Shown in pieces: positions 2,100 to 29,852 of a DNA stretch of 30,525 bases (position 1 is its first letter; every line of letters begins with the position of its first letter). The position numbers were made by a program, and so were the translations under genes. Under the pieces are notes generated by a model. It did no database searches and was not told where the DNA came from. It saw only the letters and a program-made list of their open reading frames with translations. The DNA comes from a virus, in the IMG/VR virus record IMGVR_UViG_3300042336_000420, positions 1 to 30,525 of that record. One strand, written 5' to 3'.

Positions 2100-4049
2100 A
2101 TGGCAAATACTTATTGGGCGGCAGAAACTAACGAGAATATTTCATCTGAAATTATAGCTAAATGGGGAGACTATAAAAAGTATCTCCTTCAAAGTGGAAT
2201 GTTACGAGTCTTAAGAAAATCTTATCAATGTTATTATGGGGCTCCTGATATAAAGGACGTTGATCAATCTCTAAAAGCAATTCATGTAAATAACTACGCT
2301 TCAATCCTTCGCAATTTGCACGTCATGATCACAAGCTCAAGACCAGCTTGGTCTTGCCGTGCAATCAACTCAGATCTTGAATCTCAAACAAGTGCAGAAC
2401 TTGGCGAAGGCTTACTTGATTATTATATGCGTGAGCAAGGCATTGAGGTTAAGTGTAACAAGGCGACTGAACTTGCTCTTTTCTTAAGAGAAGGCTGGGT
2501 GGTTGTTGATTGGGACGTTACTAAGGGCGATGTTATAGCCTACGATGAAAATCAAAATCCAATCTTTGCAGGCGATGTTGATGTCAACACTTACTCAATG
2601 ATAGATGTTTGCCGAGATATTTACAAAAGAGATGCAAACCATGATTGGTTTATTGTTCGCAAGTTTGTAAATAAATTTGATCTGGCTGCAAGTTATAAAG
2701 ATTTAGCCGATAAAATTGTGAATCTTTCGGAAGACGAAAGAAATAATTTTGAGTATGAACTTAATCCAGTTCAAAACCGTTTAATGACTTCAGAGAGTGA
2801 TTTAATTCCAGTATACACTCTTTATCATGCTAAGACTCCAGCTTTACCAGAAGGCCGCTTGGTGATCTGTTTAGACAAAGATATCACACTCTTTGATGGG
2901 CCACTCCCTTATAAAAAACCTTACTTGTTTGCTATTAGCACCACTCTTCAGCAAGATTTTGCCTTCGGTCATTCAAATATGTTTGATCTTTTACCTCTGC
3001 AAGATGCAATTGATTCGACTTTCTCGGCTATTTTAACCAATCAAGCTGCCAATGCGGTGCAGAACTTCCAAATGCCCAAAGGGTCGGGGATTAAAGTTAC
3101 GCAAGTTTCGGGCGGTATGAATGTCATAGAGTTTGATCCAAAGCTTGGGCCTCTTGCTCCCCTAGATCTTTTAAAAACAGCTCCAGAGGTTTTTAACTTC
3201 ACCGAAACATTAAATCAGTACATGCAGCTCTTATCAGGTGTAAGTTCCATCTCAAGAGGAGACGCTCCGGCTTCAATGTCAGGTGCTGCCATGGCATTAT
3301 TGCAGCAACAATCTATTCAATTCTCAAGTGGTCTCCAATTAAGTCATACGATGATGTTAGAGAACTTAGGGACTGCAATCATTGAGCTCCTTCAGACTTA
3401 TGCTGAAGAGCCAAGACTCGCAATTATTGCAGGTAAAACCAATCAGCCATTTATGAAGTATTTTAAAAGCTCTGACTTACAAGGTGTTAATCGAGTTATT
3501 ATCGACACGGCTAATCCATTAACCAAAACAAGTGCAGGACGTGTTGAGATTGCTAATCAACTTTTGGCAACTCCAGGCATGATCAAAACTCCAGAGCAAT
3601 ATTTGGGCGTCGTTACAACTGGAAACCTAGAGCCTCTTTATGAATATGATAGATCTAGGCAGCATCTTACTAAATCAGAAAATGAGGCTCTTATGCAAGG
3701 CCAGGACGTTATTGCAATCTTAACAGATGACCACGCAGTCCATGTTTTAGAGCATTCTTGTGTTGCTAATAATATTGAAGTCAGAACTAAGCCTGAGCTC
3801 CTTCAAAAGGTTTTAGATCACATTCAAGATCACATTAACATTGCTCAACAAATGACCCCAGAGATGGCGGCTATGTTGAAACAAACTAGCTTTTATCAAG
3901 CTCCACAACCTCCACCACAAGCTCAAGCAATGCCTCAAGGTGGCGGAGTAAATCCCAATTTGATTGGGCCTCAAACTACACTAGAACAAAAAGTTAGCGG
4001 AATAAATTTGCCAAAACCTGCGCAAAGTCCACTCCCTAACTTAACATAA
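2100..4049 (+). CDS. Portal protein
   Basis: It encodes 649 residues, in the usual range for podovirus-type portals. The dodecameric portal forms the DNA channel at one capsid vertex, binding terminase during packaging and the connector afterwards. Supporting signs are the position right after terL, the long mixed alpha/beta body, and the segment near residues 380-420 (SGVSSISRGDAP followed by SMSGAAMALLQQQ), which resembles the tunnel-helix region of portals in short-tailed phages. The C-terminal 60 residues are rich in Pro and Gln and probably disordered. A strong GGAGG lies about 8 bases before ATG 2100. The scaffold gene follows after 13 bases. Confidence 0.85.
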   Translation: MANTYWAAETNENISSEIIAKWGDYKKYLLQSGMLRVLRKSYQCYYGAPDIKDVDQSLKAIHVNNYASILRNLHVMITSSRPAWSCRAINSDLESQTSAELGEGLLDYYMREQGIEVKCNKATELALFLREGWVVVDWDVTKGDVIAYDENQNPIFAGDVDVNTYSMIDVCRDIYKRDANHDWFIVRKFVNKFDLAASYKDLADKIVNLSEDERNNFEYELNPVQNRLMTSESDLIPVYTLYHAKTPALPEGRLVICLDKDITLFDGPLPYKKPYLFAISTTLQQDFAFGHSNMFDLLPLQDAIDSTFSAILTNQAANAVQNFQMPKGSGIKVTQVSGGMNVIEFDPKLGPLAPLDLLKTAPEVFNFTETLNQYMQLLSGVSSISRGDAPASMSGAAMALLQQQSIQFSSGLQLSHTMMLENLGTAIIELLQTYAEEPRLAIIAGKTNQPFMKYFKSSDLQGVNRVIIDTANPLTKTSAGRVEIANQLLATPGMIKTPEQYLGVVTTGNLEPLYEYDRSRQHLTKSENEALMQGQDVIAILTDDHAVHVLEHSCVANNIEVRTKPELLQKVLDHIQDHINIAQQMTPEMAAMLKQTSFYQAPQPPPQAQAMPQGGGVNPNLIGPQTTLEQKVSGINLPKPAQSPLPNLT

Positions 4050-4062
4050 TAAAAGAGGGATC

Positions 4063-4992
4063 ATGTCAGAAGTAGAACACAGCGAAGTACCAAGCGAAGT
4101 AGAATCAACTAATGAAGGTCTAGACTTAGAGCTAGACCTTGGTCTAGGTAATGATGAAACTCAAGTTGAAACTGAGGAAAAACCTGAAGAGGTTGTAAAT
4201 AATCTTAAGAAAAAGTTTTTACTGAAAGTTGACGGCGAAGAGTTTGAAGAGGAGTTTGACCTCTCAGATGAAGAGTCATTAAAAAAAGAATTGCAACTTG
4301 CCAGAGCTGCAAAGAAAAGAATGGCTGAAGCTGCTGAAATTAAGAAAAAGAACTTTGAGATTATGCAGCAGCTTGAACAGGATCCCATTGCATTAGCTAA
4401 AAAGATGGGTCCAAAAGGTAGAGAAATTATTGAGAAATACCTTTACGAGCAACTCATTGAAGAGAATATGAGTCCTGAGGAAAAAGAATATAAAAACGCA
4501 ATGGCAGAGCTTGAACAGTATCGAGCTGAAAAAAAGCAAGCTGAAGAGCAAAGAAAGCTCGAAGCTGAGACAGCAGAACAGCAAAAATATGAGCAATATT
4601 ATCAAAACTTAATTATTGAGGGACTTGAGAAGTCTGGACTTCCTAAGACTCCGCAAAATGCTCAGAGAATGGCTTCACTACTTCAAAAGAATTTATCTCT
4701 TGGCTTAGAATTAACTCCGAGTGATTTAGCGAATGAAGTGAAGAGAGAGAATTTAGAGCTTATTAAAACTCTTTCCGCCAATGCAACTCCTGAACAATTA
4801 TTAGAATTATTCGGGGCAGATGTTGCAAAGAAAATAAGACAGCATGATTTAAAAATGATTAAGTCTAAACAAATGCAAGGTATCAAAACACCTTCACAAG
4901 TGGCAAGCCCAGCAAAGTCTGAAGTTAAAAGACCAATGACTACAGATGAGTATCGAGAAATGCTCAATGAAAGAATGAAAACTCTCAAATAA
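4063..4992 (+). CDS. Capsid scaffolding protein
   Basis: It encodes 309 residues. The N-terminus is very acidic (clusters of Glu, Asp and Leu up to about residue 45), followed by a long, highly charged helical region rich in Glu, Lys, Gln and Ala with coiled-coil character. A short basic C-terminus ends near residue 309. This composition, and a position between portal and major capsid genes, is typical of internal scaffolding proteins that guide capsid assembly and then leave. No protease motif is visible, so it is probably not a protease-scaffold fusion. GAGGG precedes the ATG. Confidence 0.8.
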   Translation: MSEVEHSEVPSEVESTNEGLDLELDLGLGNDETQVETEEKPEEVVNNLKKKFLLKVDGEEFEEEFDLSDEESLKKELQLARAAKKRMAEAAEIKKKNFEIMQQLEQDPIALAKKMGPKGREIIEKYLYEQLIEENMSPEEKEYKNAMAELEQYRAEKKQAEEQRKLEAETAEQQKYEQYYQNLIIEGLEKSGLPKTPQNAQRMASLLQKNLSLGLELTPSDLANEVKRENLELIKTLSANATPEQLLELFGADVAKKIRQHDLKMIKSKQMQGIKTPSQVASPAKSEVKRPMTTDEYREMLNERMKTLK

Positions 4993-5084: not shown

Positions 5085-5144
5085 ATGAATACATTCAAAG
5101 TCTCACTACCAGAGATAGAGAAAAATCAGGAAAATTTAATATGA
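5085..5144 (+). CDS. Possible 19-residue leader ORF before the HNH gene
   Basis: An ATG at 5085 opens 19 codons ending in TGA 5142-5144, overlapping the HNH ATG at 5141 in an ATGA arrangement. An AGAGGG sits only 3-4 bases ahead of the ATG, a tight spacing. The peptide (beginning MNTFKVSLPE) resembles nothing I know. It could be a coupling leader for the endonuclease or a remnant of sequence brought in with it. Existence as an expressed peptide is uncertain. Confidence 0.3.
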   Translation: MNTFKVSLPEIEKNQENLI

Positions 5145-5686
5145 AAATTTGTTCTAAATGTAATCGTTCTTTAGAGAATAAATGTTTTTATAAAAACTCT
5201 CAAAGTTTTGACGGCCTTCGTCCATCTTGTATTGAGTGTGATAAAAATATTAGAAAACTTTGGAGAGATAACAATAAAACAAGAATAAAAGAAGTTAGTA
5301 CAGAATACAGAAAAAATAATTTGAAATACTTCTCAAAAAAAATGGTTCAAATTAATAAAAAGAGACGACATAACAACGATTCTTTTAAACTTGAACACAA
5401 TTATAGAGGAATAATTTCAAATGCAATTAGAAAGAATTATAAAGAAACTAAGGCAACTGAATTACTTGGTTGTTCAATAGATTTTTATAAAAACTATTTA
5501 GAGAGTAATTTTAGAGATGGAATGACTTGGGACAATAAAGGAAAACTATGGGACATTGATCACATAAACCCTTTAAAAAATTTTGATTGTTCTAATTACG
5601 ATCAAGCCAAAGAAGCATTTAATTATAAAAATACTCAAGTGTTATTAAAAAAAGAACATAAATTAAAAACTCTCTGCGGAAAATAG
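5141..5686 (+). CDS. HNH homing-type endonuclease
   Basis: It encodes 181 residues. Two CxxC pairs (C4/C7 and C30/C33) form a likely N-terminal zinc finger. A basic Lys/Arg/Asn-rich linker follows, then a C-terminal HNH nuclease core with D140-H141 in WDIDHINPL, N164 and H173 (spacing N-x8-H). Phage HNH enzymes of this type cut DNA and often spread by homing into intergenic sites. It lies between scaffold and major capsid genes, where most phages have nothing. The coding strand is more A-rich than its neighbours. AGGA lies about 8 bases ahead of the ATG. Too little sequence flanks it to fold a group I intron, so it reads as a free-standing insertion. Confidence 0.85.
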   Translation: MKICSKCNRSLENKCFYKNSQSFDGLRPSCIECDKNIRKLWRDNNKTRIKEVSTEYRKNNLKYFSKKMVQINKKRRHNNDSFKLEHNYRGIISNAIRKNYKETKATELLGCSIDFYKNYLESNFRDGMTWDNKGKLWDIDHINPLKNFDCSNYDQAKEAFNYKNTQVLLKKEHKLKTLCGK

Positions 5687-5711: not shown

Positions 5712-6989
5712 ATCGCACAATATAATACAACAAGCACACTAGACGGCCTCTTTAAAATTGTTTATGGAGAAGGTCCTATCAATGCAATTCCTGAAATTGC
5801 AATCCTTCAAAAAGATATTAAATTTGAAAAAGCTCAAAAAATTGGGAAGTCTTACAACTTTCCAGTGATTTTATCATCTGAAGCAGGCGTTACTTACCTT
5901 GCTGCAGGTGCAGGCGTTACAACTCTCAATGATGCAATTGCGGCGCAATTAAAAGAGGCATCTGTAGATGCAAACCAAATCATTATCAGAGGTCAAATGG
6001 ACTACGAGGCAGCGGCAAAAGCTACTACTTCAAAAGATTCTTTCAAGTCTGCAACTGAATTGCTTGTTATGAACTTGCAAGAGACTGGCTCACAACGTCT
6101 TGAGATTGCAATGTTGTATGGACAATCACCAACTGGTCTTGGAACTGCTGACAGCTCTGTAAATGCATCGTCAACTACTACAACTGTGACAATGCTTGCA
6201 GCAGGTTGGGCTCCTGGTATCTGGTCTGGTAAAGAAAATGCATTAGTAAACTTTTATAAAGTGTCTGATGACTCTCTTATCTCTTCTGGTGACAACGCTA
6301 TCTTTTCAGTAACTACAATTGATTATGTAAACAAAAAGATTGTCTTCACAGGAACAAGCACAGGGATTTCAGCTCTCGACACTGCACTAGCTGCAGGTGA
6401 TTGTTACATCCATTGGAAAAATGCGAAAAGTGCTGAGATGGCTGGTATCGACAAGATTGTGACTAATTCAGGATCTCTTTTCGGAATTAGCGCGGCGACT
6501 TACTCTTTGTGGAGCGGTTCAAGCTACTCTTTTGGATCTGCAGCAGCTACAACTGCTAAATTGTTAAATATGGCAGGCTTAGCAGTGAGCAAAGGTGGCT
6601 TACTTGGCGAAGCTAATATCTATCTTTCTCCTAAAACATTTATGAATGTTTCTGGAACTATGACAGATCTACGTCGTCAAAATGGTGGTCAAAAAGAAAC
6701 TACTGGTATCGCTGGCTTTGAAACTATCACATTGATGGGACCTAACGGAAAACTTAACCTTGTTCCTCATCCAATGATTAAAGAGGGCGAGTGCTTCTTA
6801 ATTCCTGTGAAACAAATGAGAAGAATTGGAACTCAAGAGTTCTCTTACATGACTCCGGGCAGATCTTCAGAGCTTTTCTTGCACATTCAAGACAAAAATG
6901 CCTACGAGCTTCGTCTCTACTCAGCGCAAGCTATCGTGTGCTTGAAACCTGCTCAAACTGTAAAAGGTACTGGTATCGTTAACACTTAA
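5712..6989 (+). CDS. Major capsid protein (HK97-type), apparent ATC start
   Basis: The frame open from 5709 to 6989 gives 425 residues if it begins at ATC 5712. The N-terminal stretch (reading MAQYNTTSTLDGLF if ATC gives Met, then about 40 more residues) looks like real capsid sequence and is continuous with the rest. Starting at GTG 5865 would remove 51 such residues. An in-frame TGA at 5706-5708 prevents a longer protein. Ala/Gly/Thr-rich composition, size and position after scaffold fit an HK97-fold capsid subunit. Likely explanations are true AUC initiation behind the strong ribosome site or a G-to-C variant/error in an original ATG. Two hairpins follow the stop. Confidence 0.85.
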   Translation: MAQYNTTSTLDGLFKIVYGEGPINAIPEIAILQKDIKFEKAQKIGKSYNFPVILSSEAGVTYLAAGAGVTTLNDAIAAQLKEASVDANQIIIRGQMDYEAAAKATTSKDSFKSATELLVMNLQETGSQRLEIAMLYGQSPTGLGTADSSVNASSTTTTVTMLAAGWAPGIWSGKENALVNFYKVSDDSLISSGDNAIFSVTTIDYVNKKIVFTGTSTGISALDTALAAGDCYIHWKNAKSAEMAGIDKIVTNSGSLFGISAATYSLWSGSSYSFGSAAATTAKLLNMAGLAVSKGGLLGEANIYLSPKTFMNVSGTMTDLRRQNGGQKETTGIAGFETITLMGPNGKLNLVPHPMIKEGECFLIPVKQMRRIGTQEFSYMTPGRSSELFLHIQDKNAYELRLYSAQAIVCLKPAQTVKGTGIVNT

Positions 6990-7073: not shown

Positions 7074-10000
7074 ATGGCAACAATAGTCAGTTTTAACGGT
7101 TCATCGTATTCAATACCTGCAAATGGTGACAGCAATTGGGGCGCAAATGTTTCATCGTATCTCATTGCATTAGCCTCGGGAACTTTACAGCGTTCGGGTG
7201 GTACTTTTACCCTCACGGCTGAATTAAATTTTGGAACTAGTTTCGGACTTAAATCTTTATATTATAAATCAACTGCAGCAAACCCATCTAGCGCAGGAGT
7301 TTTTAAACTCGGCAATAATGAATCTATTGGATGGAGAAATGCAGGAAACACGGCAGATTTTCTTTTAAAAGTAAATGCTTCAAATGCTCTTCAATATGAC
7401 TCTAAAACTTTTCTTTTCTCAGGTGAAATTGTAAATGCTGACATCTCTGCAAGTGCGGCAATTGCTCTTTCAAAACTTGCAGCTCTAACAACTTCAAAAG
7501 CTTTGGTCAGTGATGGGTCTGGAGTTATTTCCGCATCAACAGTGACAAGCACAGAGCTTGGCTATTTATCAGGAGTTACCTCAAGTGTTCAAACTCAACT
7601 TGATGGCAAGCAAGCTTCAGGATCTTATGCTCTTACAACTGGTAAGCTCTCACAATTTGCAGCAACAACAAGCGCTGAACTTGCGGGAGTTATCAGCGAT
7701 GAAACGGGAACGGGTTCACTTGTATTCTCAAACAGTCCATCATTTACAACTCCATCTCTCGGAGTGGCCACAGCCACTTCAATTAATGCTACAACTATCC
7801 CAAGCACTAAGACTTTAGTTGTTACAACTGATAAACTTTCTGTGATGGCTGCAACTTCATCTAGTGAACTCGCTGGAATAATTTCAGATGAAACGGGCTC
7901 TGGCTCTTTAGTATTTGCAAACTCGCCAAGCTTTACAACTCCATCTCTTGGTGCTGCAACTGCAACAAGTATCAACTCAACTACAATTCCAAGCTCAAAA
8001 ACTCTAGTGGTAACTACTGATAAGTTGAGTGTTCTTGCTGCGACTTCATCAAGTGAACTTGCTGGAGTGATTTCGGATGAGACTGGGAGTGGTTCTCTTG
8101 TTTTTGCAACTTCACCAACTCTCACAACTCCCACAATGGATGTTTTAACAATCGATGGCCAAGCCTCAACTCCCTCAACTCCTTCATCGGGCTTTTACAA
8201 AACATATATTAAAGATTCGACTGGTAAACTTACTGTGCTTGATTCTTCAGGTGTTGAGAGAAGTGCAGGGGGCGTAAGTGCATGGGGAGCAAGCACACCT
8301 TATTCTGTCGGTGACTTAGTTACCTATGGAATATTTATTTATTCATGTCTTACGGCTCATACTTCTTCTTCTACGATGGAAACAGATCTTGCTGGAACTT
8401 CTCCAAAATGGAAGATTGTAAACACGGAACCTAGTCAACAGAACTTAATGACTTACGGTTTTGACTTTGAAAGTGGTGATGTTGCAGGTTGGACAGCAGT
8501 CGGTTGTGCTACTGTCACTAATGGATTGCTTGTTAGTGCTGGATCTGGGGGAGCGGCTTTTTCTGCGGCCAATGGCGGCCGTACTAAAGGCGCAAACACG
8601 ACAAGCCCTGCGGTGGTATCAAGTGGACAACTTGATGGATTATACTCTCTAAATTTTGCGACTAGTGGAGCTGGTACAATCGGAGATATGTACATTTCAT
8701 CGACGTATAAAATTCCTATTGCTTACCAATCTACAGTCTTGCAAGTGAAGTTTAAATATAAAGTTGTTAGCGGATCACCTGTCATGGCAGGGACTTCGAG
8801 CAACACTTATGCAGCGGCAATCTATGACCTTGATAACAATAGTTGGTCAACGATGGCCCTTGTTGGGAATTTCAACTTTGTTCAATCAAGTGGAGTCGGT
8901 ACTTTCACAGGGACGTTTCAAGTTCCATACAACTCAACTCAGTTTCAGATTGCTATCTACAATCCAGTAGCACCAACGGGCGCAAGTAGTTTGTATGTTG
9001 ATGATTTTTACGTGGGTCCGCAATTGGGTGCAGACACAGGCACAACAGCTATTGCTACAAATGTTTATCGAGCAAGTTCTCAGTCACTCACAAGCGCATC
9101 GACAACAAAAATCCAGTTTGCAACTATAGTTTTTGACGATGGAAATTGCTACGATGCTACAACAAATTATCGTTACACGGTTAAAACCCCAGGAAGATAT
9201 TTAATTGCAACTCAGTTAGTTTTTGCAGGTAATGCGACAAATATTCGAATTACAATGATATATAAAAATGGATCTGAAATATTTAGATCACATTCAAACA
9301 CTAATATTTTAGCACAATCAACGTATCTCCCCGCGACTTTTACAGCAAATTTATTAGCAGGCGATTACATTGAAGTTTATGGCTATCAAGATAGTGGTGG
9401 TGCCTTAAATGTTGGTGGTTCTAATACGACATTTTTAAGTGTGCAATTACTGACATCACCAGCTGGTTTGATTAACTCTGGAATTATAGCTGCATCTATG
9501 ACAAATGGTTCGGGAGCTGCTCAAAGTATATCAGCAGCAACAAACACCAAAGTTGTTTTTAATACTGTCCTTTTTGATTCAAATAATGCCTTTGATAAAA
9601 CTACTAATTATAGATATACTTTCCCTGCATCAGGTTATTACAGTATTTTTGGAACTATTCCAACTACGGCGCCATCAAGTGCCACCTCTTTAAATGTTTT
9701 GTTATACAAAAATGGTTCACAATCTAAGCAAACATATATTTATATGCCAACTGTTCAGACAACAGCTTGCTCTTATAATTTCCAAGATAGTTATAATGCT
9801 GGAGATTATATAGAAATTTATGTTTTAGCATCTCAGGCTTTTACAATTTACACAGGTGCGGCGGCCTATGGTGGGGCGCAATTAAATGTTCAAAAAATAA
9901 CAGGCCCATCGGTCATTGCTGCGACTGAAACGGTGGCGGCAAGATATACAAACACCGCAGGGACAGCGGTTCCAAACGTTGACACAATTTTAGATTTTCC

Positions 10001-12029: not shown

Positions 12030-14501
12030 ATGAGCCAAAAATTAATTTTAAAAATTCGAGGCTTAAACACGAATCAAAACCAATTATCTGAAGTTCCCGA
12101 GGGTGGGCTTCAGGTTGCTAAAAATATGGTTATTGATAAGGATAGTATTGGAGAGTCTAGACGTGGTTTAAAGTATCTAGCAAATCCTCCCGCCTCTTCA
12201 TTGACTAGAATTGATAGACTTACAGGTTATCAAGAAAAGATAATTGCTAGATATTCAAACAATAATACAATGAATTATTATGACGGTACGGGATGGACCG
12301 CATTTTCAGGAACTTATGAAAATCCTGATGATGATTTCGCAAGGATGCGTTTTTCTCAAAGCTCAGGCAATCTTTATTTTACAACCTCAAACGGTGTAAG
12401 AGTTTTAGATAACATTGCAGGTCCAGTCTATTCAACAGGGATGCCGCAAGGACTTGACGGGAGTGGTGCTACAAGTGGCGCAAGTGGCTTTATGGATAAC
12501 AATACCCAAGTTGCTTATCGTATTGTCTGGGGAAGCAAAGACTCTAATAATAATCTTTACCTTGGGGCTCCATCCCAAAGAATTATTGTTGCTAATTCAA
12601 GCGGTGGTGCAAGAGATGTCTCTTTAACCTTTACAATTCCTGCAGGTATTACAACCTCTGACTTTTATCAAATTTATAGATCTCCTTTATCAGCAAGTTC
12701 CACAACAGAGCCAAACGATGAGATGCAATTGGTTTATGAAAATAACCCATCAGGAGCGCAAATCACAGCTAAAAGCATAACTCACACGGATTCAACTCCA
12801 GTAACTTTAATGGGTGCAGCTCTTTACACTAATGCAAGTCAAGAGGGTTTGAGTGAGGCTAATTATCAGCCTCCCCTTGCTAATGATATTTGTGAGTTCA
12901 AAGGCTTCATGTTTTTTGGTAATGTGCAAGACATTGAGAATTTAACTATTAACCTTTTATCAGTCAGTGGAACTGGTCTAGTTGTGGATGACACTATCAC
13001 AATCAACTCAGTCACATATACAGCAAAAGCTACCGAAACCGTGGCAAGCGCTCAATTTAAAGTTACAACTTCAGGAACTCCAGCTCAGAACATTGCCGAC
13101 ACTTCTTTATCTTTAGTAAAAGTCATAAATCAATACACTTCAAACACTTCAATTTATGCTTACTACGAAAGTGGATACGGCGACCTTCCAGGAATTATTA
13201 GACTTGAAAAAAGAGATTTAAGCGCAGCATCTTTTACAGTGAGTGTATCAAGAGCAGCAGCTTGGGACATTGGAACGGGAGAGAGTGCTAATGATAATTA
13301 TATCAATGGACTTATGTGGTCAAAAAATCAACAACCTGAACACGTACCCTACTCTCACTTAGAATTTATCGGGTCAAGAAACTATGCAATTAGGAGAATT
13401 ATTGCTCTTAGAGATTCACTTTTTATTTTAAAAGATGACGGGGTTTATCGCTTAACGGGAAGTGGTGGATCTTGGTCATTAGATCCTTTAGACACATCAA
13501 CAAAAATCATTGCTCCAGACAGTGCCGTGGTAGTTAACAATCAAATATTTTGTTTATCAGATCAAGGCGTGGTTGCTATTTCAGACGTGGGTGTAGAGGT
13601 AAAATCAAGACCTATCGAAAATAAAATACAAGACTTGATCAGTGCTAATTATTCAAACCTTAAAACTCTATCTTTTGGTGTGAATTACGAGACAGACAGA
13701 AAGTATATTTTATTTACTATTAGCAGCTCTTCAGACACTTCATGTACTCAAGCCTTTGTTTACAACACTTTTACAAATGCTTGGACCACTTGGGAGAAAA
13801 GTGTAGTTCATGGCTTTGTAAATGTGGCTGATGACAAATTATATCTTGCAAGCGCAGGGAGTGAAAATGTCTATCAAGAGAGAAAAGATTTTACATTTAC
13901 TGATTTTGTTGATGAAGAGCTTTCTGGTTTCAATATTATTTCACATAATGGCCCAATGGTTTATTTGGACACTGTGCAAGGGGTAGAAATTGGCGACATC
14001 ATTTATCAGTCATCGACTGTTTATGACATCATTATAGATATCGACGTTCCGACAAAGAGATGCGAAACTGCAAACAAAACAGGCTTTGCAAATTCATCGT
14101 GCACAATTTTAAAAGCGATAGAATGTGAATTAGAATTTTCAAATCAGCCCGAGGATAATGCGGGAGTGATGAAACACTTCCAAGAGATTGCTTGGCTCTT
14201 CAGAGATAAGTCTTTTAATAATGGGACAACCTCATTTTATACTGACATAAGCGGTGGATATTCTGAGACTGAGATTGCTGGATCTTTTGGGGCTGATCTT
14301 TGGGGTGGTTTTACTTGGGGTTCTGTACCTTGGGGAGGGATTCAGAGACCAAGTCCTATCAGAGTTTTTATTCCAAGAGAAAAGTCTAGAGGGTCTCTTT
14401 TAAGTATTAAATTAAAAATTAGAAATGCTTATGCGAAGTGGTCGCTAAATGGATGCTCAATGCAGTTTGAATATGTATCCGAAAGAATGACGAGATTATA
14501 A
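12030..14501 (+). CDS. Tail nozzle / tail tubular B-like protein
   Basis: It encodes 823 residues, dominated by beta-strand sequence with repeated short motifs such as DGVYRLTGSGG and SDQGVVAISDVG that resemble propeller blades. The N-terminal pattern (ENPDDDFARMRFSQSSGNLYF) and the later SHLEFIGSRNYAIRRIIALRD are characteristic of podoviral nozzle proteins in my experience. A separate small domain, from about residue 310 to 415 (VDDTITINSVTYTAKATETV), looks inserted and recurs in other phage structural proteins. It is expected to form the hexameric tip of the short tail. GGTGG lies 6 bases ahead of the ATG. The next gene begins one base after the stop. Confidence 0.65.
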   Translation: MSQKLILKIRGLNTNQNQLSEVPEGGLQVAKNMVIDKDSIGESRRGLKYLANPPASSLTRIDRLTGYQEKIIARYSNNNTMNYYDGTGWTAFSGTYENPDDDFARMRFSQSSGNLYFTTSNGVRVLDNIAGPVYSTGMPQGLDGSGATSGASGFMDNNTQVAYRIVWGSKDSNNNLYLGAPSQRIIVANSSGGARDVSLTFTIPAGITTSDFYQIYRSPLSASSTTEPNDEMQLVYENNPSGAQITAKSITHTDSTPVTLMGAALYTNASQEGLSEANYQPPLANDICEFKGFMFFGNVQDIENLTINLLSVSGTGLVVDDTITINSVTYTAKATETVASAQFKVTTSGTPAQNIADTSLSLVKVINQYTSNTSIYAYYESGYGDLPGIIRLEKRDLSAASFTVSVSRAAAWDIGTGESANDNYINGLMWSKNQQPEHVPYSHLEFIGSRNYAIRRIIALRDSLFILKDDGVYRLTGSGGSWSLDPLDTSTKIIAPDSAVVVNNQIFCLSDQGVVAISDVGVEVKSRPIENKIQDLISANYSNLKTLSFGVNYETDRKYILFTISSSSDTSCTQAFVYNTFTNAWTTWEKSVVHGFVNVADDKLYLASAGSENVYQERKDFTFTDFVDEELSGFNIISHNGPMVYLDTVQGVEIGDIIYQSSTVYDIIIDIDVPTKRCETANKTGFANSSCTILKAIECELEFSNQPEDNAGVMKHFQEIAWLFRDKSFNNGTTSFYTDISGGYSETEIAGSFGADLWGGFTWGSVPWGGIQRPSPIRVFIPREKSRGSLLSIKLKIRNAYAKWSLNGCSMQFEYVSERMTRL

Positions 14502-21553: not shown

Positions 21554-21805
21554 ATGGAAACATTAAAAATCTTAATTGAATTATGGCCAATTATTTTTCC
21601 CATTATTTTATCCATAGTTTGGATGATTAGATTAGAAGGGAAAACAAATTATAATTTAAAATTAACAGAACAAAATGAAAGATCATTAGATGAATTAAGA
21701 ATTAAGCATGAAAATCTTGATAGTAAAGTTGTTGAAAAACTATCGGGAATTGAAAAATCATTAGCTAGAGTGGAAGGATTTTTAAGTAGATCAAAAGATA
21801 ATTAA
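21554..21805 (+). CDS. Single-pass membrane protein with coiled coil, lysis-region
   Basis: It encodes 83 residues. One strongly hydrophobic segment near the N-terminus (about residues 4-26, rich in Ile, Leu, Pro and Trp) is followed by a charged helix with heptad pattern to the end. This topology fits an inner-membrane spanin, a class III holin or an XhlA-like membrane anchor; gene order (first of the lysis block) allows any of these. The ribosome site is weak (GGAT). Its stop codon lies on the palindrome TTAA, which also supplies the stop of the opposite-strand endonuclease gene. Confidence 0.6.
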   Translation: METLKILIELWPIIFPIILSIVWMIRLEGKTNYNLKLTEQNERSLDELRIKHENLDSKVVEKLSGIEKSLARVEGFLSRSKDN

Positions 21806-22470
21806 ACATCATTTAATACAGCATCCTTTCCATAAAATTCTAATGATTTTTTATTATATGCAATAGCTGCTTCAATCTCATTTGAAAAAGTACCTAAATG
21901 ATATTTAATTTTATTAAATACTATTGAAGCTTGATAACGATTTTTATAATAATTTCGAACACCAAGATATTTTGATTTTCTTTTTAAATTTGCTCTATTA
22001 TTAGAAGATTGTTGTTGATATGTTGCCCAACGACAATTTTCTTTAGAATATGGACCGTCATTATTAATTCTATCAATAGAATGATTTTTTGAAGGAATAG
22101 GACCCATATCATTATAAAAAGTAATAAATGAATTTATCCATTCATCACAAATTACAATCCCTCTGCCACCATAATTATTATAATAAGATGCATTCTTATT
22201 ATAGCATCGTTCCTTCATTTTACAAAAAATTTTATATTCAGGAGATTTTGATAAACCATGTGTTTTTCTTGATAAACCTAAAATATTTTTTCCATGACAT
22301 CCACATGAAATAGTATATTTTCTTAATAAACACATAGATTGAATAACTTTTATTGTTCCACAATCGCATTCGCATAAAAAATTTGCTCTTCCATATTTAT
22401 TCATTGAATGAAAGTTTAAAACTTTTAATTTTCCAAAATGAAATCCAGTTAAATCTTTAAATTTTCCCAT
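21802..22470 (-). CDS. HNH homing endonuclease with AP2 DNA-binding domain
   Basis: It encodes 222 residues. The N-terminus has the LTGFHFGKLKVL signature and Cys-rich motifs C33/C35/C37 and C56/C58, typical of the zinc-binding head of this enzyme family. The HNH core spans about 96-150 (YGGRGIVICDEW, H130 with D133, ENCRWAT). The C-terminal AP2 DNA-binding domain spans about 166-220 (YLGVRN, then YHLGTF). Such proteins are mobile homing endonucleases. It runs against all surrounding late genes and separates two lysis-region genes, so it is most likely an insertion. No Shine-Dalgarno precedes its ATG. Confidence 0.9.
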   Translation of the reverse strand: MGKFKDLTGFHFGKLKVLNFHSMNKYGRANFLCECDCGTIKVIQSMCLLRKYTISCGCHGKNILGLSRKTHGLSKSPEYKIFCKMKERCYNKNASYYNNYGGRGIVICDEWINSFITFYNDMGPIPSKNHSIDRINNDGPYSKENCRWATYQQQSSNNRANLKRKSKYLGVRNYYKNRYQASIVFNKIKYHLGTFSNEIEAAIAYNKKSLEFYGKDAVLNDV

Positions 22471-23337: not shown

Positions 23338-23961
23338 ATGAATCGACAAATTGAATTAGCCTATAAAATAGCATTGTTGTATGAAGGCGAAAAAGAAATC
23401 CCAGGCTCTAAAAATAACCCTAATATAGTTGATTTTCATAAAGCCACAACATTAAGGGCGACCGATGACGAGACCCCACATTGTGCAAGCGCAATGAACT
23501 TTATGCAGATACAAGCTTGCCTTATTATCAATCCAGGCCTGACAACAAGATGCTTGGCAAATCGAGGGATGGATAAAGACATTCCATGCTTTTTAGAGCA
23601 TGCAATTAGAAACTGTGAAGAATTAAACTTAAAATCAGAACTTCATTCATTAAAATTCTGTGATTATACAAAAAATAAAAATCAATTATCTAATGGATTA
23701 CAAATTGAACTCCCCACCTTTTCAGCATTAGCAAGATCATTCGAGAAATTTGGTGTTGCTACGGATATGCCTGAAATTGGGGATGTGGTTGTATTTAGTC
23801 GTAGGTCTGATAATTCAGGTAGTGGTCACGTGGGATGGTGGTCTGGCTGGTCAGGTAACGAGAATAGATCTGTTTATTGTTATGGATCAAATCAATCCAA
23901 CAATTTTTGTTTTGCAAATTATGAAATAGAGCGCGTAATTTCTTACCGCACCCTAAAATAA
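23338..23961 (+). CDS. Endolysin, cysteine peptidase/amidase (TIGR02594/CHAP-like)
   Basis: It encodes 207 residues without a signal peptide. EGEKEIPGSKNNPNI (16-30) and DETPHCASAMNF (44-55, catalytic C49) match the layout of small NlpC/CHAP-type peptidoglycan hydrolases. GDVVVF (148-153) and GHVGWWSG with H164 supply the expected His. A Cys-rich insert of about 90 residues between Cys and His motifs makes it longer than usual. The usual Trp before the catalytic Cys is replaced by His. It degrades host peptidoglycan at lysis. AAGGGG lies 8 bases ahead of the ATG. Confidence 0.8.
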   Translation: MNRQIELAYKIALLYEGEKEIPGSKNNPNIVDFHKATTLRATDDETPHCASAMNFMQIQACLIINPGLTTRCLANRGMDKDIPCFLEHAIRNCEELNLKSELHSLKFCDYTKNKNQLSNGLQIELPTFSALARSFEKFGVATDMPEIGDVVVFSRRSDNSGSGHVGWWSGWSGNENRSVYCYGSNQSNNFCFANYEIERVISYRTLK

Positions 23962-23970
23962 GGCTTTAAA

Positions 23971-24186
23971 ATGATAGGAAAGAAACACGCCCGCAGACGG
24001 TTTACACATTATTGTGAGCCCTTTATCACTCAATTTAGAAAAGAACTCGCAGAGGGCTATTCTTGGGGCTATTGTTGCAGAACTATCGTAGGGAATGAAA
24101 CTAAAGTTAAAAAGTATTTTACAACATACCCCGAACTTAAAATTTTACATGAAAACTATATTAATCGAAAGCTAGATCAAAAATGA
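23971..24186 (+). CDS. Small TerS-like helix-turn-helix protein A (tandem paralogue)
   Basis: It encodes 71 residues, basic. The core FRKELAEGYSWGYCCRTI, followed by VKKYFTTYPELK, has the layout of the DNA-binding domain of phage small terminases (an ALA-x-G-x-S helix-turn-helix, then a short linker and W/F-x-x-xPE). It shares 25 of 50 aligned residues with the protein encoded next. There is no separate oligomerisation domain, so it is not a full TerS. It may act as a regulator or a site-recognition accessory near the noncoding region downstream. It follows the endolysin after 9 bases. Confidence 0.65.
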   Translation: MIGKKHARRRFTHYCEPFITQFRKELAEGYSWGYCCRTIVGNETKVKKYFTTYPELKILHENYINRKLDQK

Positions 24187-24464
24187 GTTTACCTAAATTT
24201 TTACAAGAGCCATTAAGAATTAAAAAGACTTATGCTCGACGAAAGAATCCAGTCTCAAGAAAGTATGAGAAAGTGTGCCCTGAATTTATAGCTGAATTTA
24301 AAAAAGATTTAGCCGATGGCTGGTCAATTGGCTATGCATGCAGAACTATTCCAAATGAACTGCACACAGTAAAAAGAGCATTTAAAGATTATCCTGAACT
24401 AAAAGAGCTTTATGATGCTTATTTACTAAGCAAAACAAATAGGACATTCCACATTAAAAAATGA
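24183..24464 (+). CDS. Small TerS-like helix-turn-helix protein B (tandem paralogue)
   Basis: It encodes 93 residues and overlaps its paralogue by ATGA. A basic N-terminal extension precedes FKKDLADGWSIGYACRTI and VKRAFKDYPELKELYDAY, matching the first paralogue at half of 50 positions and resembling terminase small-subunit DNA-binding domains. The arrangement shows a gene duplication retained under divergence. It is the last gene of the rightward late block; a terminator-like hairpin overlaps its stop. DNA binding is inferred from the pattern; the target is unknown, although the structured 668-bp region begins directly after it. Confidence 0.65.
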   Translation: MSLPKFLQEPLRIKKTYARRKNPVSRKYEKVCPEFIAEFKKDLADGWSIGYACRTIPNELHTVKRAFKDYPELKELYDAYLLSKTNRTFHIKK

Positions 24465-24480
24465 TTATGATAATCGTTTT
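24458..24480 (+). terminator. AT-rich terminator-like hairpin at the end of the late block
   Basis: AAAATGATTA (24458-24467) pairs with TAATCGTTTT (24471-24480) around TGA, ten pairs with one U-G. It overlaps the stop codon at 24462-24464. The right arm ends in four T. Low GC makes it weak, but a second hairpin follows within 20 bases. Confidence 0.4.
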
Positions 24481-24494
24481 CATTTAGAATTATT

Positions 24495-24513
24495 AAAAGT
24501 GAAGAACTTTTTT
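24495..24513 (+). terminator. Second terminator-like hairpin with six-T tail
   Basis: AAAAGT (24495-24500) pairs with ACTTTT (24506-24511) around GAAGA, and the T-run continues to 24513. With the hairpin just upstream it would close the long rightward late operon. Confidence 0.4.
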
Positions 24514-24570
24514 ACAGTTAAGTGATTATTTTATTTACAAGTGTGAAAGAAAGATAAAAGATCATGGCGA

Positions 24571-24594
24571 ACTCATTAATTGGCGTTAATGAGT
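24571..24594. other. Perfect 9-bp inverted repeat
   Basis: ACTCATTAA (24571-24579) and TTAATGAGT (24586-24594) are exact reverse complements separated by TTGGCG. No T-run follows. It may be an operator or an RNA hairpin at the 5' side of the noncoding region. Confidence 0.5.
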
Positions 24595-24640
24595 CTTAAC
24601 AGTAGTATATTTTGACTTTTAGCTATTAAATACAATACCG

Positions 24641-24757
24641 ATGCCATTAAAAGAAGAATGCATTAGTCTAAAAAAAGTTTCAAATCAAATTATATTTACA
24701 AAAGACTTAAAGCGGCAATGGGTTCCATGGTATTCAAAAGGACCTATAAAAATATGA
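24641..24757 (+). CDS. Doubtful 38-residue ORF in the noncoding region
   Basis: An ATG at 24641 opens 38 codons (beginning MPLKEECISLKKVSNQ, later RQWVPWYSKG). No Shine-Dalgarno precedes it, but TACAAT lies four bases upstream, so a leaderless transcript is conceivable. A TTGACT is present only 13 bases before that hexamer, too close for a standard promoter. It overlaps a predicted hairpin (24718-24747). It may be a small real gene, a gene remnant or chance. Confidence 0.25.
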   Translation: MPLKEECISLKKVSNQIIFTKDLKRQWVPWYSKGPIKI

Positions 24758-25051
24758 TATATGGCGAGAGCTATATATGCAGCGAGGAGTGGCCCCATTC
24801 AATAGTTAAACAGTGATCTATTGAAAGACAAGGACGAAGCTTGCCCATTGTTCTAAACGACTCTAATGCGTTTTAAATGCATTATTGACGGCATCGAGGG
24901 ATTAAGATGCGGGAGGAAAGCCTTTTTAATATTCGGGATATAGATAAGCGAAAATAAAAAATAAAGCTTATTAACGAACGACCGACAGCTCGAAAGGGTC
25001 AGTCATGATTTTATGGCTACTTTGTTTTAAAAAAAGAACAAGGTAGTCATA
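24718..25051 (+). ncRNA. Candidate structured noncoding RNA
   Basis: This part of a 668-bp gene-free stretch contains a chain of local hairpins: 24718-24747 (8 bp with a bulge), 24757-24778 (9 bp closed by a GAGA tetraloop), 24798-24825 (8 bp), 24828-24851 (6 bp with a bulge), 24864-24884 (6 bp), 24891-24910 (5 bp), 24944-24971 (6 bp), 24980-25000 (4 bp) and 25012-25051 (15 bp with two G-U pairs). A possible long-range pairing joins GCAATGGG (24715-24722) with CCCATTGT (24844-24851), competing with some local stems. The sequence is visibly richer in G and C than its flanks. I do not recognise it as tmRNA, RNase P, 6S, a tRNA or a self-splicing intron. Strand is inferred from the flanking rightward genes. 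Confidence 0.45.
24999..25011. repeat. 13-base repeat TCAGTCATGATTT, copy 1
   Basis: It is identical to 25089-25101, exactly 90 bases downstream. The core TCA-GTCA-TGA is an inverted repeat with a four-base centre, as expected for a protein-binding site or small hairpin. Confidence 0.75.
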
Positions 25052-25088
25052 TTCTATTGTCCACTCACTTCCCTCTAAACTCTCTGAA

Positions 25089-25101
25089 TCAGTCATGATT
25101 T
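25089..25101. repeat. 13-base repeat TCAGTCATGATTT, copy 2
   Basis: This is the second copy. Here the inverted repeat extends to AATCA-GTCA-TGATT (25087-25100). It lies 32 bases before the ATG at 25133, between ACTCT (25079-25083) and AGAGT (25110-25114), which can also pair. That placement suits an operator for the small gene downstream. Confidence 0.75.
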
Positions 25102-25132
25102 AAGATTAAAGAGTGAATTAAAAGGTTAATGA

Positions 25133-25345
25133 ATGAAAAATAAGGCACTTATAGAAATAAATGAATCAATAGAGTTAGTTAATAAGCAAGAAAAGGCTTA
25201 TCAAGATCTTAAGAATAGGTTTAGGAATGCTTACAGCGAGGCTAAAAGGCATGAGATTGTAATGGGGTATGCTAAGACATTAGTAAACGCTGATCTCTTC
25301 ACTTATGATGTTTTAGAAAGATTTTATCTTTTAAGAAAGAAATGA
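25133..25345 (+). CDS. Small hypothetical helical protein
   Basis: It encodes 70 residues, rich in Lys, Glu, Asn and Leu, predicted to be almost entirely helical (INESIELVNKQEKAYQDLK), with no motif I recognise. AAAGG lies 7 bases ahead of the ATG. It is the only rightward gene between the noncoding region and the leftward early block; its TGA ends one base before the stop of the convergent gene, with no visible terminator between them. Confidence 0.65.
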   Translation: MKNKALIEINESIELVNKQEKAYQDLKNRFRNAYSEAKRHEIVMGYAKTLVNADLFTYDVLERFYLLRKK

Positions 25346-25346
25346 T

Positions 25347-25601
25347 CTAATGTATAGAGTCATCATCCTTGGCCTCTTCAGTGTCCATCAAACAATTTAG
25401 TTCATCTATATAGGCAATGAGGGCTGCGATTGTGTTAATGCATAGCTCGTGGGGTTTGGCTTGCTTATAAAACCCCTTTTGAACTAATGATTCTTTTAAA
25501 TTAGTTAGGTAGTCTAATTCAGGAGAATTGTGTACTAGATCATAAAGATCAATCTCACCTTGCTCTAACTGAATAACAAAATTCCCTTTTTTTATTTTCA
25601 T
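25347..25601 (-). CDS. Hypothetical protein, end of the leftward block
   Basis: It encodes 84 residues, acidic at the C-terminus (EEAKDDDS). The pattern (FVIQLEQGEIDLYDLVHNSPELDYL, shortened here to its Ile/Leu/Asp-rich helices) shows no known domain. It lies three bases after the RusA stop and should share its transcript. Function unknown. Confidence 0.65.
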   Translation of the reverse strand: MKIKKGNFVIQLEQGEIDLYDLVHNSPELDYLTNLKESLVQKGFYKQAKPHELCINTIAALIAYIDELNCLMDTEEAKDDDSIH

Positions 25602-25604
25602 TCT

Positions 25605-26045
25605 TTAATCGTGAAGCTTAGAAAGGGTTATTTCAAGAAAATATTCAGGCCCTTTAATAGGTTTTCTTCGTGATCCATCAAAGCCGCCTATTATTGTGTC
25701 ATTTGAAATGATTTGAGCTTTTTGTAAGCAGTCATTCACTAAGCCAAAAAGATTGTCGAGGTCGGGGAGCTTTAAAGATCTAGCCCCTTTTTTAGTATAA
25801 TATATAGATTCGGGAAAATAGAAAGTATATTGAGCGTTCAAATCACAAGTTAGAGCATCATCAAGTTTATGCTTAATCTTTTCATATCTTAGTTTAGTTA
25901 AAAGCCAAGCCTCTGACATTTTACTAGAATCTGACGAAGTGATAAACCTAGACCCTGTTTTTCTATTAAATCTTATTTGCTTATTATTCTTTAATATCCC
26001 ATGCCGATTTACTTTTATAAGACACTTAAAAAGAATGCTAGACAT
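25605..26045 (-). CDS. rusA: RusA-family Holliday junction resolvase
   Basis: It encodes 146 residues from ATG 26045; an in-frame upstream ATG (26102) would add 19 residues lying wholly inside the preceding gene, so I prefer the internal start. LPDLDN places D95 and D97, and NDT places D116; the 19-residue spacing D97 to D116 equals that between D72 and D91 in E. coli RusA. A conserved-looking C-terminus (GGFDGSRRKP, then YFLEITL) matches the family. The enzyme cuts four-way junctions, resolving recombination or replication intermediates before packaging. It is cotranscribed with a zinc-ribbon protein and downstream of the annealing protein. Confidence 0.85.
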   Translation of the reverse strand: MSSILFKCLIKVNRHGILKNNKQIRFNRKTGSRFITSSDSSKMSEAWLLTKLRYEKIKHKLDDALTCDLNAQYTFYFPESIYYTKKGARSLKLPDLDNLFGLVNDCLQKAQIISNDTIIGGFDGSRRKPIKGPEYFLEITLSKLHD

Positions 26046-27844: not shown

Positions 27845-27989
27845 TTTTTAAGTCCTTTTTAATTAATTTTTCCAAATGATCATGAATCAACTTTGAAATT
27901 GTAGTTTTCTTTTTAAGAACAATCTTTTTAAGTTGTTCTTTTTTGTCGTGTTCAATTCTTATTAGAATTTGTGAGTCTTTAAATTTCAT
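27837..27989 (-). CDS. 50-residue ribbon-helix-helix DNA-binding protein
   Basis: ATG 27989 opens 50 codons ending in TAA 27837-27839. Residues 6-14 (SQILIRIEH) form the predicted beta-ribbon, 15-28 the first helix (KKEQLKKIVLKKK) and 30-43 the second (TISKLIHDHLEKLI), the full layout of an Arc/MetJ-type RHH domain with nothing added. GGAAG lies 8 bases upstream. The gene is coupled to the membrane microprotein ahead (one base between) and to the Gp157-family gene after it. It is a natural candidate repressor for the twin-box early promoter, though this is inference. Confidence 0.75.
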   Translation of the reverse strand: MKFKDSQILIRIEHDKKEQLKKIVLKKKTTISKLIHDHLEKLIKKDLKSV

Positions 27990-27990
27990 T

Positions 27991-28137
27991 TTATTTTCTT
28001 CCTATAACTTTAAAAAGGTCCAGTAGTAAAAAAGCATTAAAAAGTAAAAGAATATTAGTAACATATATTTGATTTATATTTGTTAAGAAAAAATAAGCTA
28101 AAATTAAAAATACAATAAATGATATTAAAGATTTCAT
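27991..28137 (-). CDS. 48-residue membrane protein with two spans
   Basis: ATG 28137 opens 48 codons ending in TAA 27991-27993. Two hydrophobic stretches (about residues 4-18 and 29-42) are joined by a polar turn (TNINQIYVTN), with a basic tail (KVIGRK). GGGAG lies at four bases, inside the end of the preceding gene. A very small two-span protein made early could act at the membrane on host functions or exclusion; no family is recognised. Confidence 0.7.
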   Translation of the reverse strand: MKSLISFIVFLILAYFFLTNINQIYVTNILLLFNAFLLLDLFKVIGRK

Positions 28138-28138
28138 T

Positions 28139-28549
28139 TTACTCCCAGTCCTCTCCGTCAAAAACACAATGTTCTCGCTCAGGCTCTTCAGTCCACTCTA
28201 ATTGATCAAAATCTATTACAAATTGAATTAAATCCATTTGTATATCTCTAAAAGTTTCTTGCTCTAAATCAGATAGTTTTAAATTAGCATTAACATCAAT
28301 AGGATCTTTGTCATAAACTAAATTTTCGGCTTTGTTATCGCTTAAATCCCAAGCGGTTTTATTGAAATATTTTAAAAGATCAAATAAATACTCTTCAAAA
28401 TAAACAACGTCAGATTCTATATCTAAGTCATATTCTTCTTTATTAAGATGTTTTGCTCGAATATCTCGTAAAAAAAAATTTATTCTCTGACTTAGCTTAG
28501 TGTAAGCATCTTCTTTTCTATTATGATAAAGATCATTGTTGAATTTCAT
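28139..28549 (-). CDS. Acidic hypothetical early protein
   Basis: It encodes 136 residues from ATG 28549, preferred because AAAGGA lies at ideal distance; an in-frame ATG at 28573 overlaps the previous gene. The protein is strongly acidic (many Asp and Glu, ending EEPEREHCVFDGEDWE) and helical. Small acidic early proteins often act as DNA mimics or inhibitors in phages, but nothing here proves that. It is the second gene of the leftward operon. Confidence 0.65.
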   Translation of the reverse strand: MKFNNDLYHNRKEDAYTKLSQRINFFLRDIRAKHLNKEEYDLDIESDVVYFEEYLFDLLKYFNKTAWDLSDNKAENLVYDKDPIDVNANLKLSDLEQETFRDIQMDLIQFVIDFDQLEWTEEPEREHCVFDGEDWE

Positions 28550-28563
28550 TTTGTTTTCCTTTC

Positions 28564-28821
28564 TTATTGCCATTCGCTTTTAATAAGAAAATCAGTTTCA
28601 TCAAAATTTATTACGATTGGATTACCTGAAATTGTGTCAGATTGTGAAAGCTCATAAGAGTAATGAGCTGTATTATCAATTTTTTGAACAATATCATTTA
28701 AAATAAATTCGATATATTCTGAGCATTTTGGTTTAAGCAATCGTCCTAAATAAAATGCCGCTTTAAGTTTATCTTCAGGTCGAAAATCAATAATTGTTTG
28801 AACCAATACTTTATCTTCCAT
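28564..28821 (-). CDS. First gene of the leftward operon, hypothetical
   Basis: It encodes 85 residues, with helical N-terminus (RPEDKLKAAFYLGRLLKP) and an acidic, beta-like C-terminus. AAGGA lies 6 bases ahead of ATG 28821. It is the gene closest to the regulated early promoter, so it should be made earliest and most abundantly of this block. No known domain is visible. Confidence 0.65.
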   Translation of the reverse strand: MEDKVLVQTIIDFRPEDKLKAAFYLGRLLKPKCSEYIEFILNDIVQKIDNTAHYSYELSQSDTISGNPIVINFDETDFLIKSEWQ

Positions 28822-29698: not shown

Positions 29699-29724
29699 AG
29701 ATGAATTTCCTTTTTGATTATGTG

Positions 29725-29783
29725 TTGACAGACTTGATCTTTGTTATCACTTTATTATAAAAGAAAGGAGTCACACAATGGCA
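29725..29783. promoter_or_regulatory. Divergent promoter region
   Basis: This interval, in and next to the 79-base gap between divergent genes, contains rightward candidates TTGACA (29725-29730) and TTGATC (29734-29739) with TATAAA (29756-29761) 16 bases from the latter. A leftward TATAAT (29754-29759, minus strand) lies 19 bases from TTGCCA (29778-29783). It should start the long rightward block and the transglycosylase gene. The exact hexamers are uncertain. Confidence 0.4.
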
Positions 29784-29837
29784 AAAAAAGCAGCAACAAA
29801 AAAAGCGACAAAAAAAACTACTAAAAAAAAGTGCTAA
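29778..29837 (+). CDS. 19-residue Lys-rich microprotein
   Basis: ATG 29778, seven bases behind a strong AAAGGAG, opens 19 codons: 10 Lys, 4 Thr and 3 Ala in a histone-H1-like KKAT pattern, ending Lys-Cys. The strong ribosome site argues that it is translated. A run of eight A ending in G (29823-29831) contains A-AAA-AAG in the frame used for -1 slippage in dnaX; one inserted or deleted base would also change the C-terminus. A DNA- or RNA-neutralising role is suggested by charge. It is the first gene of the rightward block. Confidence 0.6.
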   Translation: MAKKAATKKATKKTTKKKC

Positions 29838-29852
29838 CAAAGGAATAAATTT

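Follow-up and report, generated by a model that had tools for sequence, protein, structure and literature searches.

A probable large structured RNA, outside the catalogued families, in the widest gap of a compact phage genome

The plus strand of a 668-bp gene-free region in an environmental phage genome probably encodes a large structured RNA, as judged from modelled folding, that is new, an orphan and assignable to no catalogued family. A preliminary description had proposed a new structured RNA at this place, and our analysis supports that reading in part and finds it the best supported of those considered, because the region shows excess stability specific to one strand, a predicted helix that closes a multi-branched domain, no coding signal, and a weak sharing of motifs with a gap in G007, a related uncultured phage. 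Only a handful of classes of phage RNA with structures this large are known, and their function is open.

A gene-free region in a compact genome

The window, by which we mean the whole stretch of DNA that was analysed (30,525 nucleotides), is a complete circular phage record from an environmental sample, and its genome is probably 30,398 bp (30.4 kb) long. The ends of the record share a 127-bp repeat, and since the repeat has the identical length in three related records, this suggests the k-mer overlap of an assembler on a circular genome and not a biological repeat. Among the genes of the window are those for a terminase, a P22-like portal, a capsid protein, a RusA-type resolvase, a Gp157-like protein and an SLT lytic enzyme, and no tRNA or tmRNA was found in it; named phages are distant relatives only, the nearest of which has a Silvanigrella host. 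Very AT-rich DNA also contains two free-standing ORFs (5141-5686 and 21802-22470) that are homing-endonuclease-like, of HNH type by eye, and that both fall below every Pfam threshold. The capsid protein aligns to its relatives over its full length from the codon ATC at 5712 (site 5712-5725), with AAGGAAG just upstream, a stop two codons earlier and no ATG, GTG or TTG start there, which points to a rare ATC start or else to an error in the sequence.

The coding share of the genome is ~95%, and its largest gap is the following:

24465..25132, plus strand: gene-free region of 668 bp, between a plus-strand 93-aa ORF before it and a plus-strand 70-aa ORF after it

Frames stop at 24464 and restart at 25133, and both flanking ORFs are on the same strand as the predicted RNA. 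The gap is almost four times the size of the second-largest (178 bp, followed by 154 and 148 bp) and takes up ~2% of the genome length, which bears out the earlier claim of a gene-free 668-bp stretch in a compact genome. The short ORFs at 23971-24186 and 24183-24464 are tandem and overlapping and seem to be mutual paralogs, with a GYxCRTI, YPELK pattern in both; searches of PHROG and Pfam gave no match for either.

The longest ORF within the gap is 41 aa, the hexamer coding score of the best gap ORF was equalled in 9% of shuffled versions of the gap, and the two top-scoring gap ORFs lack a recognisable ribosome binding site. A Pfam scan of read-through translations in four frames (three plus, one minus) returned no domain above the cut-off, and tblastn of one read-through frame against phages returned no match. 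On these grounds the gap encodes no convincing protein, as had been proposed. A decayed HNH gene, considered for a frame-2 stretch (YGESYICSEEW) that recalls the HNH-like ORFs of the genome, was rejected for want of Pfam or tblastn support. The preliminary description was mistaken in calling the gap more GC-rich than its flanks, as its GC content is 32.3% versus 35.3% in the 1 kb upstream and 33.5% in the 1 kb downstream (genome, 35.6%). Within the gap, only 24701-25010 is richer (39%), and 24465-24700 has a GC content of 24.6%.

A closed multi-branched domain is predicted on the plus strand

Pair probabilities were obtained from a partition function on 24556-25055 of the plus strand. This predicted a domain that is closed by a 10-bp helix (P1) and followed by a further hairpin, with these features:

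24559..25011, plus strand: predicted closed multi-branched RNA domain, 453 nt, MFE -106.9 kcal/mol
24559..24568, plus strand: 5' strand of the closing helix P1, AGATCATGGC, mean pair probability 0.98
25002..25011, plus strand: 3' strand of P1, GTCATGATTT, mean pair probability 0.98, within the 13-nt repeat TCAGTCATGATTT
24581..24717, plus strand: long interrupted 5' arm, most helices with a mean pair probability of 0.87-0.96
24581-24597/24702-24717, 24604-24624/24676-24696 and 24640-24648/24657-24664, plus strand: helices of the 5' arm
24757..24778, plus strand: hairpin with a GAGA (GNRA-type) tetraloop and a 9-bp stem, inside the closed domain, P 0.99
24798..24825, plus strand: hairpin TTCAATAG/CTATTGAA, P 0.96
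24864..24884, plus strand: hairpin TAATGCGTT/AATGCATTA, P 0.95
24891..24910, plus strand: hairpin GCATC/GATGC with loop GAGGGATTAA, P 1.0; the loop holds GAGGGATTAAG (24896-24906)
24943..24972, plus strand: hairpin GATAAGC/GCTTATT, P 0.97
24996..25005, plus strand: GGGTCAGTCA, also found in the G007 gap
25012..25051, plus strand: 17-bp hairpin immediately 3' of P1, then TTCTATT, P 0.96

The chain of hairpins noticed earlier is thereby recovered, with six named hairpins at P 0.95-1.0, as are the GAGA tetraloop hairpin and, in the strongly predicted pairing of 24559-24568 with 25002-25011, the possible long-range pairing; the hairpin that had been given as 15 bp is present at 25012-25051, and its length is 17 bp. 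A rival local 9-bp hairpin, ACTCATTAA/TTAATGAGT, read from the sequence, is possible at 24571-24594, overlapping the 5' arm. The 13-nt repeat is exact and occurs at 24999-25011, where it holds the 3' strand of P1, and again at 25089-25101, and this second copy could compete for the 5' partner of P1. From its modelled fold, the hairpin at 25012-25051 may be terminator-like or may protect a 3' end; it is the sole terminator-like site in 23900-25700, a count that is not above chance.

Folding stability exceeds chance on one strand

On the plus strand, the domain 24559-25011, which excludes the 17-bp hairpin, had a z of -3.5 with none of 80 shuffles equally stable, a value that is somewhat flattering because the boundaries were picked after the fold was known. 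Its confident pairs numbered 67, versus 28 +/- 16 in shuffles, and the minus strand of the same domain gave a z of -0.9 and 14 confident pairs. The whole 668 nt gave -2.9 on the plus and -1.8 on the minus strand, and 24757-25056 gave -4.3 on the plus versus -1.1 on the minus strand. P1 was stronger than the closing helix of any of the 80 shuffles, five of which exceeded P 0.9; since shuffles commonly form some long-range helix, P1 alone is no proof. In an unbiased scan of the genome in 202 windows of 300 nt, the two most extreme both start at 24901, and both contain the 17-bp inverted repeat at 25012-25051, which scores on both strands and explains part of their extremity. The very AT-rich part at 24465-24700 was ordinary in the fold scan.

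The main rival to a structured RNA is an ordinary intergenic spacer or a decayed gene, with hairpins that arose by chance or from the inverted repeat, and we regard it as a serious minority reading. Without that repeat the domain keeps its z of -3.5, and does so on one strand only, which argues against such a spacer, as do the absence of Pfam remnants from all four scanned frames and a size that is out of scale in a genome with ~95% coding. A spacer would nonetheless agree with the ordinary, AT-rich character of 24465-24700, with the lack of a recognisable homolog by blastn or covariance model and the weakness of the homology to G007, and with the other complete relatives, which seem to lack such a gap; phages of this group also carry many insertions, a possible source of remnants.

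An origin of replication or a packaging site, with hairpins that act as DNA, had been put forward as an alternative, and we consider it unlikely. The strand-biased stability fits an RNA and not a symmetric DNA element, and a search for DnaA boxes in the gap found three one-mismatch matches (24508-24550), none exact and no cluster, with the total across the genome below the shuffle mean; the origin reading is thus unsupported. The divergent promoter region (29699-29852), moreover, lies elsewhere. The paired 13-nt repeat would suit a control site, but it has only two copies. The AT-rich segment 24465-24700 does adjoin the hairpins, as in a DNA-level site, and no obvious replication initiator was seen among the tested genes, which implies that a host-recognised origin must exist somewhere in the genome.

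A gap in a related phage shares motifs with the window

Relatives were uncultured phages gathered via terminase, capsid and portal searches, among which G004, G007 and G013 are complete and G012 is near-complete. The samples from which L002, L004 and L011 come contain close relatives of the phage, represented by terminase-portal fragments. G007 has a gap of 774 nt (3684-4457) at another place in its genome, with a z of -2.2 on the minus versus -1.3 on the plus strand, and the minus strand of this gap has TTAATTGGCG, GAGGGATTAAG and GGGTCAGTCA in common with the plus strand of the window. This sharing was spotted by eye first and tested afterwards, by counting 10- or 11-mers with at least four G+C, which gave a shuffle P of ~0.004 (0.4%) for the three motifs and placed the G007 region first among 780 real windows taken from six phage genomes; the opposite strand of the G007 gap shares no such 10-/11-mers. 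The 11-mer GAGGGATTAAG lies in a hairpin loop in both gaps, on stems that differ. These sequences weakly show a related region in G007, and the homology of the two gaps is likely but unproven, because the order of the motifs is partly kept (only GAGGGATTAAG then GGGTCAGTCA), the stems do not match up pair by pair, and a looser test, the 11-mer in hairpin loops of both gaps, has a chance rate of 2-6%.

Searches for further relatives of the region gave little. A single-sequence covariance model of 24755-24912 found only itself in 710 kb of sequence from this phage and its relatives (45 loci, the G007 gap included), a search of 33 more distantly related phage records did not find GAGGGATTAAG, and blastn of the window gap against phages and plasmids returned chance matches of 20-70 nt only, with likewise only short chance matches for the gaps of G007 and G012. 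When the gaps were aligned loosely in pairs as nucleotides, the scoring was in the non-local regime and the outcome uninformative. The pattern GAGGGATTAAGN{2,9}RGRGGAA had 25 matches in 2.9 million viral contigs, and only that of G007 looked non-coding and structured, the remaining ones being in open frames or right at gene starts. Neighbouring proteins (the 207-aa lysis-type protein and RusA) found no relatives among viral contigs by tblastn, and GTDB genomes contained neither an exact 18-mer match nor capsid relatives.

Gaps were also seen in other relatives. In G012, a 617-nt gap comes after genes read as an Erf-like recombinase and SSB and has a plus-strand z of -4.4 (30 shuffles; -2.5 with just 8 shuffles), without sequence common to the window. 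A large plus-strand-structured gap at L067 12963-13640 (G012 27963-28640) has a 10-bp helix, AGGGCGCAGA/TTTGCGCCCT, that encloses ~380 nt, and no Rfam match was found in it. The joined ends of G004 (L022 and L005; 31096-31486 joined to 1-252) form a gap of ~640 nt with several strong hairpins, stable on both strands, among them a bidirectional terminator-like hairpin, GGCAGGGG...CCCCTGCC; unlike the gap of the window, this one perhaps holds terminators or an origin. In the complete relatives G013 and G032, an automatic caller found no gap of at least 300 nt; low-scoring short ORFs made the same caller overlook the gap of the window, too. Automatic gap calling is unreliable in distant higher-GC relatives, having reported a gap in G011 at the place of a genuine RusA gene, and we therefore make no claim on how common such gaps are.

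Comparison with known RNA families

ROOL forms a homo-oligomeric nanocage, GOLLD also multimerises, and the covariance model of GOLLD covers a conserved 3' region. A scan of the gap against Rfam at the gathering score gave no match, including to ROOL, GOLLD and introns, and a permissive scan (E up to 10, 801 bases) again gave none, including to ROOL, GOLLD and Intron_gpI, in agreement with the earlier remark that ROOL and GOLLD motifs were not recognised. ROOL (RF03087) is a large, phage-borne structured non-coding RNA with a multi-branched predicted fold and unknown function that is often close to tRNA islands, while GOLLD expression goes up in phage lysis and many GOLLD RNAs are >800 nt (PMC12286853). 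The predicted RNA resembles ROOL in being large, phage-borne and multi-branched, and differs in that the window has no covariance-model match and no tRNA genes, whose proximity is a frequent and not an obligatory feature of ROOL. GOLLD (RF02032) is likewise a large phage RNA, and the locus of the window sits after lysis-end genes, but its domain spans ~450-500 nt and has no match to the model. A very diverged member of ROOL or GOLLD, for which size, closed multi-branched form and phage context would speak, is therefore highly improbable, as Rfam is empty up to an E of 10 and no tRNA genes are nearby.

We consider a group I or group II intron just as improbable, even though group I introns (RF00028) are likewise structured RNAs of phages, a few hundred nt long, and introns occur in this group of phages, the capsid gene of G007 having a group I intron-like element. 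This element served as a positive control and matched Intron_gpI with an E of 2.5e-7, below the gathering score, and as the same procedure finds it, the absence of Intron_gpI from the window is informative for that family. Moreover, the locus is outside any split gene and its flanking ORFs look complete: the 93-aa ORF ends in a stop codon of its own (24464), and no exon looks cut because this ORF, by eye, resembles the preceding 71-aa ORF up to its end. The major capsid gene is split after codon 14, between MAxxNTTSTLDGLF and KVVYGEGP, at L008 (G007) 12375-13519 and L055 (G012) 8657-9745, with inserts of ~0.9-1 kb that contain an endonuclease-like ORF and have a mutual identity of 79% over 213 nt.

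A model for the structured RNA and its implications

In the model that we propose for the structured RNA, the plus strand at ~24556-25055 would encode a stand-alone large RNA of ~450-500 nt, in which P1 would bring the ends together and close a multi-branched domain with some eight arms, and the 17-bp hairpin would seal, protect or terminate the 3' end. Provided that the structured RNA is real, it would probably act as an RNA on its own and not by stabilising the 3' end of late messages. Transcription would be late, reading through from the lysis-end genes that immediately precede it, since a search for plus-strand sigma70-like promoters, which unusual phage promoters would escape, found none. 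By analogy with what has been proposed for ROOL and GOLLD (PMC12286853), the molecule may itself work as an RNA late in infection; its transcription, timing, processing and function are inferred.

More tentatively, the RNA could be the first representative seen of a new and rapidly evolving family of large stand-alone phage RNAs, also represented in the gaps of G007 and perhaps G012, that has a common closed architecture and the GAGGGATTAAG loop, little sequence in common, and a ROOL/GOLLD-like role; we hold this to be possible but doubtful. If the RNA is real, small podovirus-like phages (~30 kb) that lack tRNA islands also give rise to such molecules, in families that have diverged too far for the covariance libraries now in use. 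With 2% of its length devoted to one RNA, a compact genome like this would also be convenient for deletion tests of what such RNAs do.
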